DNA from: Colwellia sp. M166
Lineage (GTDB): Bacteria; Pseudomonadota; Gammaproteobacteria; Enterobacterales; Alteromonadaceae
Direction of reading: 5' to 3'
Length of the DNA: 64,000 nt
Assembly: GCF_024585285.1 (NCBI RefSeq)
Contig: NZ_CP040755.1
Location: forward strand, 1,860,001-1,924,000
Below the pieces are notes generated by a model. It did not search any database, had not been told where the DNA came from, and saw only the letters and a program-made list of their open reading frames with translations. Of this stretch, positions 5,434-38,431 are shown in pieces. Each line of letters opens with the position of its first letter. The stretch's first letter is position 1. The position numbers and the translations under genes were made by a program.

Positions 5434-7002
5434 TTAGGCAAAATAGTCTTGCAAAAATGCATCAAAGTCTAACGTATCGCTTAGCTCAATGTCAGATTGC
5501 TTTTGTAATGACTCTGCCACCGTATTGGTGAAATATTCATCACTAAATTCTTGGTAGTCCTGAGCCAAAAGCTGTTGGCGATAATCAGTTGCTTTGCTTA
5601 GGGCTGATTTTGTTAACGATTGATTGTTATTAACAACACCCGCGAGAATTTTTGCCGACGGCGTTAAACTACTATCATTAATCTTTGCCGCTTCAGCCGC
5701 TAAAACTTTACTGTAAAGCTGACTTTCATTGGCTTGATCCAATAAAGTGGCAATATCAGTCATTTTAGCAAAAATTTCACCACCCCATTGCTGTACAGAT
5801 TTATCCTCAGCATTATCACGTAACAGCAACTTAGGATCGCGGCCGCGGATCACAATAGCATCCATGTTCTCTTCACTAATACCTTGTTCTTCACAGCTAA
5901 GTCTCGGGCTATCTTCGAGCATACAGAAAGTAAGAAACGTATCTAAAAATCGAATTTGTTCAACATTAATCCCGGTAGCAGAAAAAGGATTCACATCTAA
6001 CGCTCTAACTTCAACATATTCAACGCCACGATTTTTTAACGCTTGCGATGGTTTTTCGCCGGCTTTGGCAACACATTTAGGACGAACCGGTGCATATAGT
6101 TCATTTTCTATTTGTAAAACATTACTATTCAGTTGCTGGTACTTACCATTAACTTTAAGGCCTATTTTTTCAAATTTTTTCGATGGTAAGTTTATCGCAC
6201 TTCTCACGCCATCTAAGTAACCGGATAAGTTGTTATAACAAATCTGTAAAGACGACTGTTCACTATTGGTATAACCCAAATCACTCATTCGTAGCGAAGT
6301 CGCATATTCCAAGTACATATAACCTTTATCGGTTCTTTTAAACGGTAAATCTGTCGGTTTATTTTTTAAAAACGATCCACAAATAGCAGGTGAACTGCCA
6401 TACAAGTATGGGATAAGCCAACAAAAGCGTTTGTAGTTTCTTAATAATGCAAAATATTTATCCGAAATATAATCATCTAACGCATCGGTATTTTGCTCAA
6501 TAGTTTGCAACGATTGAAAAAAGCTTTGTGGAAAGGAAAAGTTAAAATGAATACCTGAAATAACTTGCATCATACTGCCATAGCGATTTTTCAAACCTTG
6601 ACGATAAACCGTTTTCATTTTGCCAATATTAGATTTACCGAACTGCGCGAGTGGTATTTTATCATCATCATCAACAAAGCACGGCATACTCATAGGCCAT
6701 AATAGCTCGCCATCAAGCTGGCTTAAGGTAAATTTTTGCACATCTTCTAATTGCGCAATAGCAGTTTCAGGGCTATGGCTCACTGGGGTAATAAACTCCA
6801 GCAAGGTTTCTGAATAATCAGTGGTTATATTAGGGTGCGTTAACGCAGCACCTAAGCGCTCACTGTGTGGTCGTTCCGATAAGCGACCTTCTGGTAAAAC
6901 TCGCAGCGCTTCACGCTCTATACCCCGACCAAACTGGCTCAAAGAAGTGATATGCTTTTCTTGAGCAAAAGCCGCGATATATTCGTTTAATGATAATGTC
7001 AA
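5434..7002 (-). CDS. gshA: Glutamate-cysteine ligase
   Basis: First enzyme of glutathione synthesis: ATP-dependent joining of Glu through its gamma-carboxyl to Cys in the cytoplasm. At 522 residues it has the length of the E. coli proteobacterial-type enzyme (518) and is collinear with it. Recognisable blocks are GIEREALRV near residue 24, TDYSETLLEFITP near 60-72, the GIHFNFSFP segment near 150, and EVRALDVNPFSATGI near 330. It stands alone in its operon, with an apparently independent promoter in the 412-bp gap upstream. gshB is not in the window. Its presence argues that glutathione coexists with ovothiol, whose operon lies 25 kb away. Confidence 0.95.
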   Translation of the reverse strand: MTLSLNEYIAAFAQEKHITSLSQFGRGIEREALRVLPEGRLSERPHSERLGAALTHPNITTDYSETLLEFITPVSHSPETAIAQLEDVQKFTLSQLDGELLWPMSMPCFVDDDDKIPLAQFGKSNIGKMKTVYRQGLKNRYGSMMQVISGIHFNFSFPQSFFQSLQTIEQNTDALDDYISDKYFALLRNYKRFCWLIPYLYGSSPAICGSFLKNKPTDLPFKRTDKGYMYLEYATSLRMSDLGYTNSEQSSLQICYNNLSGYLDGVRSAINLPSKKFEKIGLKVNGKYQQLNSNVLQIENELYAPVRPKCVAKAGEKPSQALKNRGVEYVEVRALDVNPFSATGINVEQIRFLDTFLTFCMLEDSPRLSCEEQGISEENMDAIVIRGRDPKLLLRDNAEDKSVQQWGGEIFAKMTDIATLLDQANESQLYSKVLAAEAAKINDSSLTPSAKILAGVVNNNQSLTKSALSKATDYRQQLLAQDYQEFSDEYFTNTVAESLQKQSDIELSDTLDFDAFLQDYFA

Positions 7003-31977: not shown

Positions 31978-33116
31978 TTACTCACTTTTTATCTGCTGAT
32001 TAACATAATGCTCGAATATCGCCAGTGTTTGAGCAAAGCTTTTTTGTCCTAAACCTAAACGAAAATAATTTCCCTGCAAGCCGAACAACTCACTTGGCAA
32101 GGCTAATATACCGGTTTTTTTTTTACCAGCCTATTTGACCAAGCCATCATAGAAGCAATATTTTTAACTTCAACTAACGCTAATATGCCCGCTTGCGGTG
32201 GATGCCAACTGAATGCTTGCTTATAGCGGTTGATAAAAGCAGAAAACAAAGCAATATTATCGCGAATAATAACATTGTTAGTCGCTATAATTTCATGGCT
32301 ATATTGTAGTGCTATGCTGGCTAAATTTTCATCTATTTTTGAGCAACAAATAGAGCTCATGGCTTTAATTGCCAGTAAACTATTCAGTAAAGTGTCATCG
32401 GGTGTTACTGCCCAACCAATGCGCACACCGGCTAAGCCTAAGCTTTTTGACATAACACCAACAATGATACTTTTTGAGTAATCAAGATAGCGATGAGCCA
32501 AGGCTAAATCATGGTAATTACTGGCTTGGGATACATCATCACTCAATAAATAGCATTGATATTGCTCAGCCAGTTGTAATACTTGCTCAGCCAATGCACT
32601 ATCAATAATGCTACCGGTTGGATTATGTGGTGAGTTAAGGACGATCAAACGAGTTTTTTCCGTCATCAAGCGGCTAAAATCTTCAATATGAACTTGCCAA
32701 TGATTATCAGCACACAGTGCTATTTCTTTAACAACCACGCCCATGGTTTTTGCCATAGTAACCAAAGATGGGTAACTCGGTGTCAGTACGATAATTTCAT
32801 CATCAGCATCTAACAACGCTTGATAAACCGCCGACAATGCTTCTTGTGCTCCACAGAAAGTTACCGCATTATCAGCCTCAAGTGTTTGGCGATGACAATT
32901 TAACCCTTGATGAAAATTAATAATTAATTGGCGCAGCAATACATCACCTTGTACCGGAGAGTAACTTAGCAGTATGCTATTCAGCTCATCCACTGAGAAT
33001 GCGCATAATTGCTCATAAGTCAAAGCGTGCGCAGTCGAATCACTGAAATTAAATTTGATGTGATCTGCCAAACCTCGAGTATAAGCAATATGCTTGGGCA
33101 ATAAATATTTCGGCAT
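31978..33116 (-). CDS. ovoB: 5-histidylcysteine sulfoxide lyase OvoB, with frameshift in A10 tract
   Basis: PLP-dependent C-S lyase of aminotransferase fold I that releases 5-thiohistidine from 5-histidylcysteine sulfoxide in ovothiol synthesis. It has NSPHNPTG (161-168), SDDV near 192 and the PLP Lys at 224 in VMSKSLGLAGVRIGW. As read, the protein stops at 32103 after 337 residues. However, a run of ten A (32115-32124, minus strand) precedes that stop. With one extra A or two fewer, the frame continues ILALPSELFGLQGNYFRLGL to a stop at 31978, about 379 residues in all. The FRLG Arg is the usual carboxylate-binding Arg of this fold, so the extension belongs to the gene. It starts three bases after ovoA. 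Confidence 0.82.
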
Positions 33117-33119
33117 AAG

Positions 33120-35228
33120 CTATTTTGCTCGCCATGCCGTAAGCTGGCAGTGTGATAAATTAAAGCTACGTACTGAATCAGCTAATACACGAGAGAGTTC
33201 TTGCTGACTAACCAAGTCAAAATCGCTGCTAAGTTGCTGGTTCAAAGCATCAAAGCCAGATAAATTTTCACCATTAACTTTTATACCGCTCAGCCATTTA
33301 CTTTTTTCTGTTATCTTTGCTTGATAATAGTAATCAGAAATAACGATCAATAAGCCTGACGGGTTAAGTCGACTAACCGCATTCGATAATAAACGTTTAG
33401 GATCATAGCTTTGCTCTAGTGCATGCTGAACTAAAACCACATCGTAGTGATTAAAGTGCTGTTTTAGATTACCTCCATCGCCTTGGCTAAATAATATCCG
33501 CTCGCCCTTAACTTGTTCGACGAAATCTGCCAATGTAACTTCATGGTATTGACAAATTTCACCTTCAATGGTGCTGGTATAGCGCACACTAGCACCCGTT
33601 TGTAATTGCACACCATGTTGAATAGTGCGAGCCGAAAAATCAACAGCATCTATATGTTGAAAATACTGACTAAGCTCAAATGCCACTCGGCCAACACTGC
33701 AACCTAAATTAAGTAAACGTTCAGTCATTAAACCTTGGCTGACAATTAAATTTACCACCTGTTTTGCTATTTGCTGTCCGTAGTTCTCATAACCCAATAA
33801 CTCCTGACCAAAGTAGCAAGCAAGTTGTTGGCAAATATCTTGACTAGTTTCAAACTTATTAAACGCTACCTCTGGCAATGCAGAGTCTTTACTCTCGATA
33901 TATCTAAAGCCGGCATGTTGATAAAAATGTCGACGAAAAGCGTAGCGCGAAGCCGCTAAGGTTTCATTTCCAGTTGAGATCCAAGAGCCACCTTTGATCA
34001 AGTTATGTTTACCATCAAAGGTCGGCGTAGAAAAATCATCGTACAATGGATGGACGCTAAAACCTTCAAAACCATCAATCGCTGACTCAGTCCACTGCCA
34101 AACATTACCGATAACATCAAAAAAATCACCTTGCTGATGACGATTTACCGGACATGATGACGCATTATAGGCTAAATCAATATTACCTGGCACTTCTGGC
34201 CATTGGTGTTGATCACCACTGACATGATCGCGAAGACAGTACCATTCAGCTTCGGTAGGTAAGCGGATAAAGCCAGTTGTACTCGCTTGTCGCCATTGAC
34301 AAAATGCCTTAGCTTCCAAGCAATTTACTTCTACTGGCCAATCTAACGGTAATGGCATTTCGTGGAGTAAATTTCGCTGATAGTATTTACCGTCATGTTG
34401 ACGCCAAAATTTAGGCATAGCCGCTTTGGTAAACGCTAACCATGCTTGTCCTTCTTGACACCAAAACTCTGTTAACTGATAACCACCAGCCTCGACAAAG
34501 CCAAGATACTCTTGATTCGAGACTAAATATTTAGCAGCACTAAAATCATCGATGTCAACTACCTGCTGGCCATATTCATTATCCCAACCATAGGTATTAT
34601 CTTGAGGCTTTTTACCTAATGTTAAGTTACGTGCTCTTACTGGTACTAATGCATTTTCAGGCGCAGCGGTTGACTGTAAACAAGGTTGCCATTGTTCATC
34701 GGCACTTAACAAGTTCAGCGGTAGCATGCGCATGATAACTGATGAGGTTTCAAGGTGAATCCGTTCGTGTTCACAACCCATTAAAATAATCCAAGCTAGT
34801 GAGTCTTGCGTTATCGGTAAACTCAACTCCATAGTTTCAATCAAGCTTAATACTAAGTGATAAACTTCTTGTCGGTAATCACGCACCTCATCAACACTGG
34901 GCCAGTCATAATGCTCACTATCAAGATCATCCCAGCTCATTTCATCAACACCAACGGCACAAATAGCTTCTAACCTACTGTTAATGCGTTGCTTGATATA
35001 TTTACCAAGAATAAGTTTATTGACATAAAAGGTTGCAGTATGGCCAAAGTAAAACACCAACGGGTGCCGTAAAGGCTCAGGACGGAGAAAATAAGCATCG
35101 TCGTGGTTAATCAAGGAAAATAAGGACTGATAAGTCGACCACGTATTTTTAAAATATGCGATGAGCTCTTGTCGCTTTTCTGCTACCGAGTTGCCATCAA
35201 GTGTTGGCGTATTTAATTGCTTTATCAT
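33120..35228 (-). CDS. ovoA: 5-histidylcysteine sulfoxide synthase / mercaptohistidine N-methyltransferase OvoA
   Basis: Bifunctional ovothiol enzyme of 702 residues, full family length. The N-terminal DinB-like region supplies the iron ligands GH at 62-63 and HERIHLE at 154-160. A formylglycine-generating-enzyme-like sulfoxide synthase domain follows (about 200-450; GGSWISTGNE and ASRYAFRRHFYQHAGFR near its end). A C-terminal SAM methyltransferase begins with LLNLGCSVGR at 505-514. The enzyme joins Cys to the imidazole of His with O2, then methylates 5-thiohistidine after OvoB has acted. It is second of three genes in one operon. The dual domain and the adjacent lyase separate it from ergothioneine EgtB. 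Confidence 0.93.
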   Translation of the reverse strand: MIKQLNTPTLDGNSVAEKRQELIAYFKNTWSTYQSLFSLINHDDAYFLRPEPLRHPLVFYFGHTATFYVNKLILGKYIKQRINSRLEAICAVGVDEMSWDDLDSEHYDWPSVDEVRDYRQEVYHLVLSLIETMELSLPITQDSLAWIILMGCEHERIHLETSSVIMRMLPLNLLSADEQWQPCLQSTAAPENALVPVRARNLTLGKKPQDNTYGWDNEYGQQVVDIDDFSAAKYLVSNQEYLGFVEAGGYQLTEFWCQEGQAWLAFTKAAMPKFWRQHDGKYYQRNLLHEMPLPLDWPVEVNCLEAKAFCQWRQASTTGFIRLPTEAEWYCLRDHVSGDQHQWPEVPGNIDLAYNASSCPVNRHQQGDFFDVIGNVWQWTESAIDGFEGFSVHPLYDDFSTPTFDGKHNLIKGGSWISTGNETLAASRYAFRRHFYQHAGFRYIESKDSALPEVAFNKFETSQDICQQLACYFGQELLGYENYGQQIAKQVVNLIVSQGLMTERLLNLGCSVGRVAFELSQYFQHIDAVDFSARTIQHGVQLQTGASVRYTSTIEGEICQYHEVTLADFVEQVKGERILFSQGDGGNLKQHFNHYDVVLVQHALEQSYDPKRLLSNAVSRLNPSGLLIVISDYYYQAKITEKSKWLSGIKVNGENLSGFDALNQQLSSDFDLVSQQELSRVLADSVRSFNLSHCQLTAWRAK

Positions 35229-35282: not shown

Positions 35283-36386
35283 TTAAATAATAATACTAGG
35301 CTGTTGAAATTGTGTTAAATAATTTTGTTTTACTTGTTGGCCAATGCTTAATTCTGCTGCCATGTCAGTATCAGTTTGTACCCTGTTCAGAGTTCTATCT
35401 ATGCTTTCGCTGAACCAGTTATTATTAGCAAACAATGTTATTGCCCCCTGTTCAGTTTGCTGATCATAGAGCGAGCGAGGCAATTGGTTACTTAGCTCCT
35501 GCGCTGATGGCTGGTCATGTTTTATCTCATCAATAGTGTCAATGACATTTAATAAAGTATAAATAACATTCAAGTAAGGATTATAATGCTCACTCGATGC
35601 GCCAAGCCTGTGTTCTATACGCGCTGTTTTATGCCAATTCTCATGACTGACGATAACATTATTTTTATCATCATAAATCACTGGCTCCATACCCATTTTT
35701 TGATTGTGCTTACCGATATCTCGATAAAGTGCAATACTGCCTTGATGACCACCAGAAATATCTACAGGTGAGCATAATTCATCTGCCAAACCATATTTTG
35801 ATTTTAACAGTAAACGCTCAAAAGCCTCTTCTTCAGGTAAATATAGTAAGCAGCACGCCAAACTTGTCTGCAATAAAGCTTGCTGCAACCGTTCAGCAAA
35901 ATCACCAGCAACCAGTAAATTATTCCCTGCTAGATCTTGCACGCTAACGTTGATTTGCACCGCATTAGGTATATGAACAGCACGGTTATCGGCACTAAAA
36001 ACATTTTCGCACCCTAAGGCTAACTTACCGTAATCGCCAGCCCAAACTACGGGTTTGATCAAAGTATTTGTCACCCCCTGGGTGGCAAAAATTTTAGGTA
36101 ATAAGTACAGCGCTTGCTTGAGGTTATGCGCTTCTTTTAATGGACTTTGACCATTAAAAAGTGAAACATACTCCCACTGGTTACTCCAATACTCTGCAAC
36201 GACTTCACCATCAACACCAAGGCTTAGTAATTTCTGGTTGACCTTTTTATAATCTATACGTTTACCTAGTGGTATTTGATAACAACCTTCTAATTCAAAG
36301 TGAATTAATGCCCGAAATCCTCGCTGATGAATGTAATCTTGCAACTGAGAAATTACAGTGATTTCGAGCTGAGTAAAACTAGTCAT
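35283..36386 (-). CDS. Glutamine synthetase-like protein, first gene of the ovothiol operon
   Basis: Protein of 367 residues (ATG 36386; a GTG at 36395 is also possible). It carries the C-terminal catalytic fold of glutamine synthetase but not the N-terminal beta-grasp domain of about 100 residues. Residues matching metal and substrate sites are E31/E33 (HFELEGC), E65 and E72 (AEYWSNQWE), E258 and R260 (ARIEHRLG) and the NPYLNVIYTLLNVIDTI block at 269. The HxH of GMHxHMS is replaced by QINVS near 144, so ammonia/ATP handling may differ. It may ligate glutamate or another acid to an amine or thiol compound. It is 54 bases upstream of ovoA on the same strand. Function unproven. Confidence 0.6.
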   Translation of the reverse strand: MTSFTQLEITVISQLQDYIHQRGFRALIHFELEGCYQIPLGKRIDYKKVNQKLLSLGVDGEVVAEYWSNQWEYVSLFNGQSPLKEAHNLKQALYLLPKIFATQGVTNTLIKPVVWAGDYGKLALGCENVFSADNRAVHIPNAVQINVSVQDLAGNNLLVAGDFAERLQQALLQTSLACCLLYLPEEEAFERLLLKSKYGLADELCSPVDISGGHQGSIALYRDIGKHNQKMGMEPVIYDDKNNVIVSHENWHKTARIEHRLGASSEHYNPYLNVIYTLLNVIDTIDEIKHDQPSAQELSNQLPRSLYDQQTEQGAITLFANNNWFSESIDRTLNRVQTDTDMAAELSIGQQVKQNYLTQFQQPSIII

Positions 36387-36547: not shown

Positions 36548-38431
36548 TTAAAAAATTTTAATTTGATTTTTACCGAAGTGCTTGGCTTGATATAGTGCTT
36601 GATCAGCATTGATATAGAGTTGATTAATATCACGACATTGTGCTGATAGCGTCGCGATGCCAATACTAACAGTTACGTTATCTTGATGACCTTTGACCAC
36701 TGTAGACTGGTTAATTGCAGATAAAAAACGTTCCGCAATTTTCTTTGCAGTGGTAACGTCTGTTCGGGGTAGAATACACATAAACTCTTCACCGCCAATA
36801 CGGCCGAAAATATCATCCTGACGAAAAATTTCACTACCGATTTCTGCCACCTGACAAATAACATCATCACCAACAGGATGGCCATATTTATCATTTATTT
36901 TTTTGAAATCATCAATATCGATTAAAATAATCGACATTTGGATTTTTTCTGATGCATCGGCTAGTGCCGCCTTATCTAGATAATCAAAAATATAACGACG
37001 ATTAAACAAACCAGATAAGGGATCCTTTATCGTTAATAAGTGCATTTTTCTATTACTACGGTATTGTGCAATAATTACAATCAGCACAATTAAGCTGCCG
37101 CAAGTAATAAAAACGGTAAAATAAATATCTTGAGTTGTGTTACTTTGCTGCTTTTCTAGCTCGAGTGATTCTACTTGTAGGTGTTCTGCTGTCAATGCTT
37201 GCGCAATTTTTTGGCGCTCAACTTCCAAGCTAGCTCTTACTTTTAGCAACCTTTTCGAGGAGTTTTTTAATAATAGCTCAGTGTACTGGCGATAATACTG
37301 CTCAAGCATACTATAACCAATATCATACTCGCCGCGAGCATGGGTTAATTCAGCTGATATTTTTAGCACTTCTAGTTGCCAGTTTGTTCCTATAAGTTCA
37401 GGAATATCAGCAAAAATTAGAGCCGCGCTATCAAGTGCCTTTTCCGCTTCTTCAAAGCGGCCTAGGGTAATTAAGCAACTCGCTTTACGTTTATATAACT
37501 CCGCGTTGTAGTCAACAATACCTTTTAAGGTCAAGGCCTTATCTATAACGTTAATAGCAGCAAGACAGTCACCTTGCTCTGCCAACGTCATACCTATGCC
37601 ATAAGCAGAAAAGAAACTAATATTTGAGTTAGGAGTATAAGCAATCTGCTGTTGATATTTTTCAAAATACTCTATGGCTAATTGATATTTCCCCCAGTAA
37701 CGATACGTTGATGCCAAGCCATAAATAGCCTCTGCTATATGTGCTGGATATTGCAAGTTTTGATAAGCCTCAAGTGCTCTTTGATAATACTCAATTGACT
37801 TTTTATAGTCCTGTAAATAACCATAAATAGCACCATAGGTTTCATTTATTGAGGCGATTAAAAACTGATCTTTCAACGCGAAGGCTTCAACATAAGCTTC
37901 TTGGATATCAATTAAGGAAGTCTCAAATAGCTCTGTCAGGGTTTTTGTATAGGCAAGCTCTTGTTTTCCATAAACATATAAACTACTTAACTGAGCTTCC
38001 TTAGCTTGTATTAAGGCTTTAGCAAGTGATTCTTGAGAACGATTATAATCTCCTTGTCGTCGCTCAATAAGACCTTGAAATAAACTTAGACGCGCTTGAA
38101 TAGCTAAAGGAGTACTTGTGGTCACTAAATTGTTAGCCTGCTTAACTGAGCGGCTAAAATCATCATAAAAGTAAATTAAATTTTCGGCTTGAGCTTTACG
38201 TAATAACCACCATAAGTAATGCAACTCATCGTAAGATTTAGCTTCTAACTGCAAACCAATCAATTTTTGGTAGGACAACCATGGCTCAAGATAGATCTCA
38301 TGATCCATGTCGATGAAATTTACGTGCTTATCCGCCAGTGTTGTTAGAGGAAAACTTAACAAGAGTATGATTAAAGTTACATAACAGGCTTGTAAAGCTT
38401 TTGTCATAGTGTATCCGTAGTGGGAATCCAT
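36548..38431 (-). CDS. TPR-containing membrane diguanylate cyclase
   Basis: 627 residues (an internal ATG at 38407 would start MTKALQACYV and may be the real start). There is an N-terminal signal sequence ending near LADK, then about eight TPR-like repeats (residues 110-390; YNRSQESLAKALIQA and YKKSIEYYQRALEAYQ are clear), a coiled coil, one membrane helix (about 430-452) and a cytoplasmic GGDEF domain. The active site is GGEEF with ILIDIDDFKKINDKYGHPVGDD, and the inhibitory RxxD site (RQDD) lies five residues before it, so product inhibition is likely. It probably makes c-di-GMP in response to a periplasmic signal bound by the TPRs. Confidence 0.88.
   Translation of the reverse strand: MDSHYGYTMTKALQACYVTLIILLLSFPLTTLADKHVNFIDMDHEIYLEPWLSYQKLIGLQLEAKSYDELHYLWWLLRKAQAENLIYFYDDFSRSVKQANNLVTTSTPLAIQARLSLFQGLIERRQGDYNRSQESLAKALIQAKEAQLSSLYVYGKQELAYTKTLTELFETSLIDIQEAYVEAFALKDQFLIASINETYGAIYGYLQDYKKSIEYYQRALEAYQNLQYPAHIAEAIYGLASTYRYWGKYQLAIEYFEKYQQQIAYTPNSNISFFSAYGIGMTLAEQGDCLAAINVIDKALTLKGIVDYNAELYKRKASCLITLGRFEEAEKALDSAALIFADIPELIGTNWQLEVLKISAELTHARGEYDIGYSMLEQYYRQYTELLLKNSSKRLLKVRASLEVERQKIAQALTAEHLQVESLELEKQQSNTTQDIYFTVFITCGSLIVLIVIIAQYRSNRKMHLLTIKDPLSGLFNRRYIFDYLDKAALADASEKIQMSIILIDIDDFKKINDKYGHPVGDDVICQVAEIGSEIFRQDDIFGRIGGEEFMCILPRTDVTTAKKIAERFLSAINQSTVVKGHQDNVTVSIGIATLSAQCRDINQLYINADQALYQAKHFGKNQIKIF

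Follow-up and report, generated by a model that had tools for sequence, protein, structure and literature searches.

The window analysed here, a stretch of 64,000 nucleotides from Colwellia sp. M166, contains three closely spaced genes centred on ovoA; all window features described below lie on the minus strand. The most upstream of the three (35283..36386, ATG start) encodes a protein of 367 aa, which its open reading frame (ORF), predicted fold and hhalign comparison lead us to describe as a glutamine synthetase (GS)-fold ligase-like protein, abbreviated here to GSL. The first-pass annotation had placed this gene 54 bases upstream of ovoA on the same strand, in agreement with the ORF coordinates, ovoA itself spanning 33120-35228. 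Judged by its two curated halves, the identity of the second gene as OvoA is unambiguous: the sulfoxide-synthase domain, hereafter the N-domain (residues 1-444; 33897..35228), scores 660.6 bits against TIGR04344, and the diverged methyltransferase (MT, or OvoC) domain (residues 455-702; 33123..33866) scores 231.1 bits against TIGR04345, both above cut-off.

According to passages of a 2025 study, ovothiol A is made by OvoA, OvoB and OvoC (PMC12631010). The third gene of the window, 3 bases past ovoA, encodes a PLP fold-type I enzyme (32103..33116; PF00155, 135 bits) and occupies the position expected for ovoB; by position, its product is expected to be OvoB, a putative C-S lyase acting on the sulfoxide. 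The enzyme scores 90 bits against the PatB model, under its cut-off of 340, reaches no cut-off among the 25 best NCBIfam families and is nearest to the GntC/VioD models of NCBIfam. The gene terminates early in the window: its relatives align for about 40 residues further in another frame, from about 32121 to about 31993, which may reflect either a frame change or a sequencing error. Beyond GSL on the upstream side, the same strand encodes a TPR-GGDEF diguanylate cyclase (36548-38431).

The GS-fold protein and its active site

The GS catalytic fold is present in GSL according to both fold prediction and hhalign, in which the comparison with PuuA-type GS succeeds and that with GlnA-type GS alone fails (E 0.042). 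Family models do not recognize the protein. At E<=1 it matched no Pfam family, PF00120 and the PafA/Dop models included, and none of the curated Pfam and NCBIfam models of EgtA/GshA; matches among NCBIfam models and PDB sequences never rose above chance (best E 0.065 and 0.15, respectively). When the window genome was searched with the PF00120 profile, one other gene alone was matched, a GlnA, and GSL was not. A protein search at E<=1e-3 returned 540 relatives; the best 120 range from 329 to 421 aa in length and carry database names that include 'GS catalytic domain-containing', 'Glutamine synthetase' and 'ATP-grasp'.

Several features that had been read from the sequence at first pass were borne out by the alignments and the predicted fold. 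The N-terminal beta-grasp domain is lacking, with the first catalytic strand predicted at residue 24 and the alignment beginning at the catalytic domain. The residues reported as retained (E31/E33, E65, E72, E258 and R260) are invariant in 197 sequences, a set that includes near-copies, as are R191, Q144 and N146. Alignment, together with inspection of motifs, equates the five glutamates with the metal ligands of GS, all five carboxylates being present; the E31-L-E33 motif lies at 36288..36296. We take E31, E33, E65, E72 and E258 to be E129, E131, E212, E220 and E357 in GlnA numbering, and R191 and R260 to align with the glutamate-binding Arg-321 and Arg-359 of GS. The reported replacement of the GMHxH histidines also holds, Q144 and N146 presumably standing where GS has H269 and H271. 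The loop that holds Glu in GS is rebuilt (PNAVQINVS versus NGSGMHVHQS), and clear conservation is absent from the region of Arg-339. Because two active-site histidines are replaced and the Arg-339 region is not clearly kept, the activity of GSL is not certain.

Two inserts specific to the GSL family sit near the active site. The first (residues 113-139; 35970..36050), identified from alignment and conservation, lies after the KP motif and before the strand that carries GMHxH in GS; about 22 of its residues are unaligned with PuuA-type GS, W115, D118 and H138 are invariant in the 197 sequences, and much of it is predicted at low pLDDT. The second (residues 222-255; 35622..35723), recognized by its conservation and with boundaries set by eye from motif reading, holds K226-H227-N228-Q229, which is likewise invariant. 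These inserts may complete within a single chain the active site that in GS is completed by the beta-grasp of a neighbouring subunit, a tentative reading given the low model confidence for insert 1.

GSL can be placed beside three groups of known enzymes. With the GS and gamma-glutamylamine ligases (GlnA, PuuA, GmaS and 1-naphthylamine GS; PF00120) it shares the catalytic fold and the five metal-binding glutamates; it differs from the GlnA/PuuA type in the absence of the beta-grasp, the change of GMHxH to AVQIN, the conserved inserts, the missing PF00120 match and its occurrence only beside ovoA in the sampled genomes. The glutamate-cysteine ligases EgtA and GshA belong, like GSL, to the GS superfamily and act in thiol metabolism, but GSL matches none of their models and goes with ovoA, and a separate canonical gshA match exists. 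Passages of PMC8599861 present PafA and Dop as GS homologues in which a large domain carries the active site and a small one forms the C-terminus. They show that GS-like ligases can diverge and take larger partners, whereas GSL has no Pfam match to them and is found in the context of a small-molecule pathway.

Linkage to ovoA and the phylogeny of OvoA

GSL is strictly linked to ovoA in the sampled genomes. In a sample of 295 genomes from the order, GSL occurs in 9 and ovoA in 53; all 9 GSL genes lie directly upstream of ovoA, and 4 of them come from outside the family of the window genome. In a family sample of 246 genomes, GSL is found in 59, including one in which it is split between two frames (G847) and one in which it is cut by a contig end (G762). 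The first-pass annotation had tied GSL to the ovothiol pathway and had staked this link on how often homologues adjoin ovoA: ovoA is the next gene downstream on the same strand in 59/59, at a spacing of 36-324 bases between matched stretches, and no GSL away from ovoA was found among these genomes, so the pathway link passes that test. The single same-genus genome listed without GSL (G805) also lacks ovoA above cut-off. In a class sample of 369 genomes, ovoA occurs in 19 and GSL in 2, both from the window's family. Carriers of the pair include the marine genera Colwellia and Thalassotalea. The models for the two halves of OvoA are exceeded in 59/59 (TIGR04344) and 49/49 (TIGR04345) GSL genomes.

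Across 43 GSL loci from several families (42 distinct ones, since L015 and L226 represent one contig, and with contigs L004-L017 possibly overlapping in species with other sampled genomes), the GSL-ovoA pair is the sole constant and the surroundings otherwise vary. The clusters to which the window's PLP gene and its upstream GGDEF gene belong are found within four genes of ovoA in 23/43 and 22/43 of these loci, respectively.

Some further loci deserve mention. In L224 (G847), GSL takes the form of two overlapping ORFs in different frames (147 and 253 aa) next to a full-length ovoA. Distant second ovoA/egtB-like genes with 438-aa frames and E about 1e-35 are present at G826:C1:2961040-2962023 and G909:C85:158894-159877, in a genus that also carries GSL-ovoA. 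Nine ovoA loci without GSL share one PLP-enzyme cluster beside ovoA, downstream in L108 and L110-L114 and upstream in L117, L132 and L137. This cluster differs from the PLP cluster of the GSL loci, and one of its members may, judged by eye, resemble a PatB-type C-S lyase.

A tree of 63 OvoA proteins, which leaves out L128, L141, L147 and the split L145, places the 23 OvoAs with GSL in one group (support 100/97), separate from the 40 without. In a midpoint-rooted tree of the N-domain only, to which 16 outgroups from other families were added, the GSL group is again single and is nested among OvoAs that lack this neighbour, a pattern consistent with a single gain of GSL. L145 (G247) has no GSL, and its ovoA is split between its two domains into ORFs of 521 and 195 codons. 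A remnant of GSL was looked for at this locus, with a best E of 0.52, and its OvoA most resembles OvoAs without GSL.

The methyltransferase domain of GSL-linked OvoAs

No single residues separating the OvoA clades were found at strict thresholds; a contrast between the two domains emerged with relaxed thresholds and then with a count of invariant columns. We called a column changed if the residue common to all 40 OvoAs without GSL is kept by half or fewer of the 23 in the GSL clade. On this definition, 0/109 columns are changed in the N-domain and 26/65 in the MT domain (Fisher 1.6e-13, the 23 sequences being one clade). The 40 OvoAs without GSL keep 26/26 by construction, the positions having been selected on them. 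Further OvoAs without GSL, comprising 16 class-level outgroups from other families and 3 additional members of the order, keep 22-26 of the 26, and the split OvoA of L145 keeps 26/26 along with canonical MT motifs. The 23 GSL-clade proteins keep 0-12, and the range is 0-11 in 20 OvoAs added from GSL loci (19 of them new); the window OvoA keeps 0/26 of this list, which is our own definition of putative methyl-acceptor positions.

Many of the changed columns fall in three motifs, NLIDR, SPYTW and FVIRETxRKFQH. In the window, alignment and column counts place HALEQ at residues 602-606 (33411..33425), where the canonical sequence is NLIDR, and DYYYQ at residues 632-636 (33321..33335), where it is PYTWL; residues 680-691 (33156..33191) likewise depart from the canonical FVIRETxRKFQH. 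The solved chains of OvoA (8khq), OvoM (9bxl) and OvsM (9bxh) retain the three motifs with small variations. The window MT domain aligns with these enzymes over nearly its whole length and the SAM motif is kept in the GSL clade, whereas NLIDR, SPYTW and FVIRETxRKFQH are replaced. Among pairs of equal N-domain identity (0.65-0.70), MT identity is 43% for the GSL clade against 70% for the others. Among the OvoAs compared, then, the aligned sequences indicate that the MT half is rebuilt only in the GSL-linked clade. No second OvoC-type domain above cut-off was found in the 49/49 GSL genomes tested, of 59.

Simple decay of the MT domain is ruled out by its dN/dS of 0.06-0.09 (six pairs, dS 0.2-1.8) together with the retained SAM motif, of which 10-11 of 11 residues are kept in the 20 added OvoAs; the domain is changed but under selection. 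Some replacement residues are themselves conserved in the GSL clade (E605 in 21/23, Q606 in 19/23). Many of the old canonical positions are variable inside the clade, so constraint at the old pocket may have loosened.

The N-domain is not free of clade-specific marks. The count was also run in reverse, starting from columns in which all 23 GSL-clade OvoAs agree: 13/168 of these in the N-domain and 0/31 in the MT domain differ in half or more of the remaining OvoAs, and the relaxed screen gave four N-domain positions (4, 90, 144 and 382). These marks fall at columns that are variable elsewhere, and a changed coupling substrate or altered substrate binding is possible. The gain of GSL and the change in the MT domain share one branch and one evolutionary origin, a coincidence in the tree that does not establish cause.

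Candidate role of GSL in 5-thiohistidine metabolism

On balance, we consider it probable that GSL works as a carboxylate-amine ligase dependent on ATP and Mg and dedicated to thiohistidine metabolism, whose 5-thiohistidine conjugate is then methylated by the altered OvoA MT domain. In this scheme, the OvoA N-domain would form 5-histidylcysteine sulfoxide as usual and the PLP lyase would release 5-thiohistidine. GSL would then activate an acid by phosphorylating its carboxylate (in the simplest case the gamma-carboxylate of Glu) and link it to 5-thiohistidine through the amino group of the latter; methylation by the altered MT domain would act on this conjugate rather than on free 5-thiohistidine. 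We infer the ligase activity itself, and also its place after C-S bond formation and before methylation, while Glu as the acid partner and the alpha-amino group as the nucleophile are guesses. C-S coupling looks unchanged at every N-domain position fixed in other OvoAs, so GSL most likely acts later, and since the ligase arises on the branch where the MT domain loses its canonical motifs, its product is probably the methyl acceptor. The simplest product class would be N-acylated 5-thiohistidine, gamma-glutamyl being the default for the ligase superfamily. The amide ligase role suggested at first pass thus gains from the predicted fold and the invariant metal ligands, with the activity a prediction from sequence.

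The same linkage and the same MT change would also fit a GSL for which 5-thiohistidine or ovothiol is itself the acid partner, its carboxylate being activated and then coupled to an amino acid, some other amine or ammonia to form an amide or dipeptide. Since the Glu-holding loop is rebuilt, the acid partner need not be Glu, but the retention of R191 and R260, both putative glutamate-binding arginines, speaks against this version, which we regard as unlikely. Less credible still is a role ahead of OvoA, also raised in the first-pass annotation, in which GSL would supply a precursor such as gamma-Glu-Cys or an acylated His, as EgtA does in ergothioneine synthesis. The gene does precede ovoA in the operon, EgtA and GshA share the GS superfamily fold, and the 13/168 N-domain columns of the reverse count make the domain contrast less clear-cut; a new donor should nevertheless alter its pocket, while none of the 109 invariant N-domain columns is changed against 26/65 in the MT domain, and a canonical match to gshA is already present elsewhere in the window (5857-6975; PF04262, 548 bits). 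Modification of ovothiol or 5-thiohistidine, the other half of that proposal, fits better.

A catalytically dead GSL, serving its OvoA clade as scaffold or regulator, would account for the one-to-one linkage and for the replacement of His by Gln and by Asn where GS binds metal and ATP. Pseudoenzymes usually lose metal carboxylates and similar residues first, whereas in GSL all five carboxylates and both arginine equivalents are invariant and dN/dS is 0.05-0.10 (six pairs), making this explanation improbable. The MT domain might also have changed independently, through another methylation site or relaxed constraint, with GSL doing a separate job such as removal of an amine by-product. The variability of the old pocket positions agrees with this, and one shared branch cannot part cause from coincidence; given the conservation of E605 and Q606, the low dN/dS of the MT domain and the lack of any GSL without ovoA in 59 genomes, we find it very hard to credit.

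Passages of PMC12631010 describe the enzymes for other 5-thiohistidine derivatives as previously unknown and name OvoA, besides 5THNAT, as the sole known enzyme using such a derivative as substrate; finding such enzymes is called there a critical prerequisite for understanding 5-thiohistidines. 5THNAT, a 5-thiohistidine N-acetyltransferase discovered through ovoA neighbourhoods, N-acetylates 5-thiohistidine and so competes with methylation by OvoC (PMC12631010). It sets a precedent for the role proposed for GSL, which it resembles in being encoded by a bacterial neighbour of ovoA; it differs in being GNAT-type, acetyl-CoA-using and mainly from Bacteroidota. The MT domain is lacking in some ovoAs of that system, whereas in the GSL clade it is kept but rebuilt. 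We found no paper in the open-access literature on a GS-like gene linked to ovoA, although an earlier mention elsewhere is possible. The words 'glutamine', 'ligase' and 'synthetase' are absent from the main text of PMC12631010, and in the portions available of PMC9103826 and PMC10805701 'glutamine synthetase' appears only within a reference on mycobacteria.

By its strict genetic linkage, GSL would be a second candidate enzyme acting on a 5-thiohistidine derivative, besides the OvoA/5THNAT context. If GSL is such a ligase, one would expect a metabolite not yet observed, a methyltransferase that accepts another substrate and a GS-fold ligase of a free-standing type, all in genomes that standard models would label as ordinary ovothiol A producers. 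The most specific form of this reading, that these marine bacteria make an N-acylated (e.g. gamma-glutamyl) 5-thiohistidine whose imidazole is methylated by a re-specialized OvoA MT domain, is a tentative proposal that we hold to be possible rather than probable. Together, GSL and the rebuilt MT domain suggest that the antioxidant ovothiol exists in a chemical variant yet to be described. If the proposal is true, this would be an undescribed low-molecular-weight thiol, a histidine-based counterpart of the glutathione family, made by a free-standing GS-fold ligase without a beta-grasp domain.
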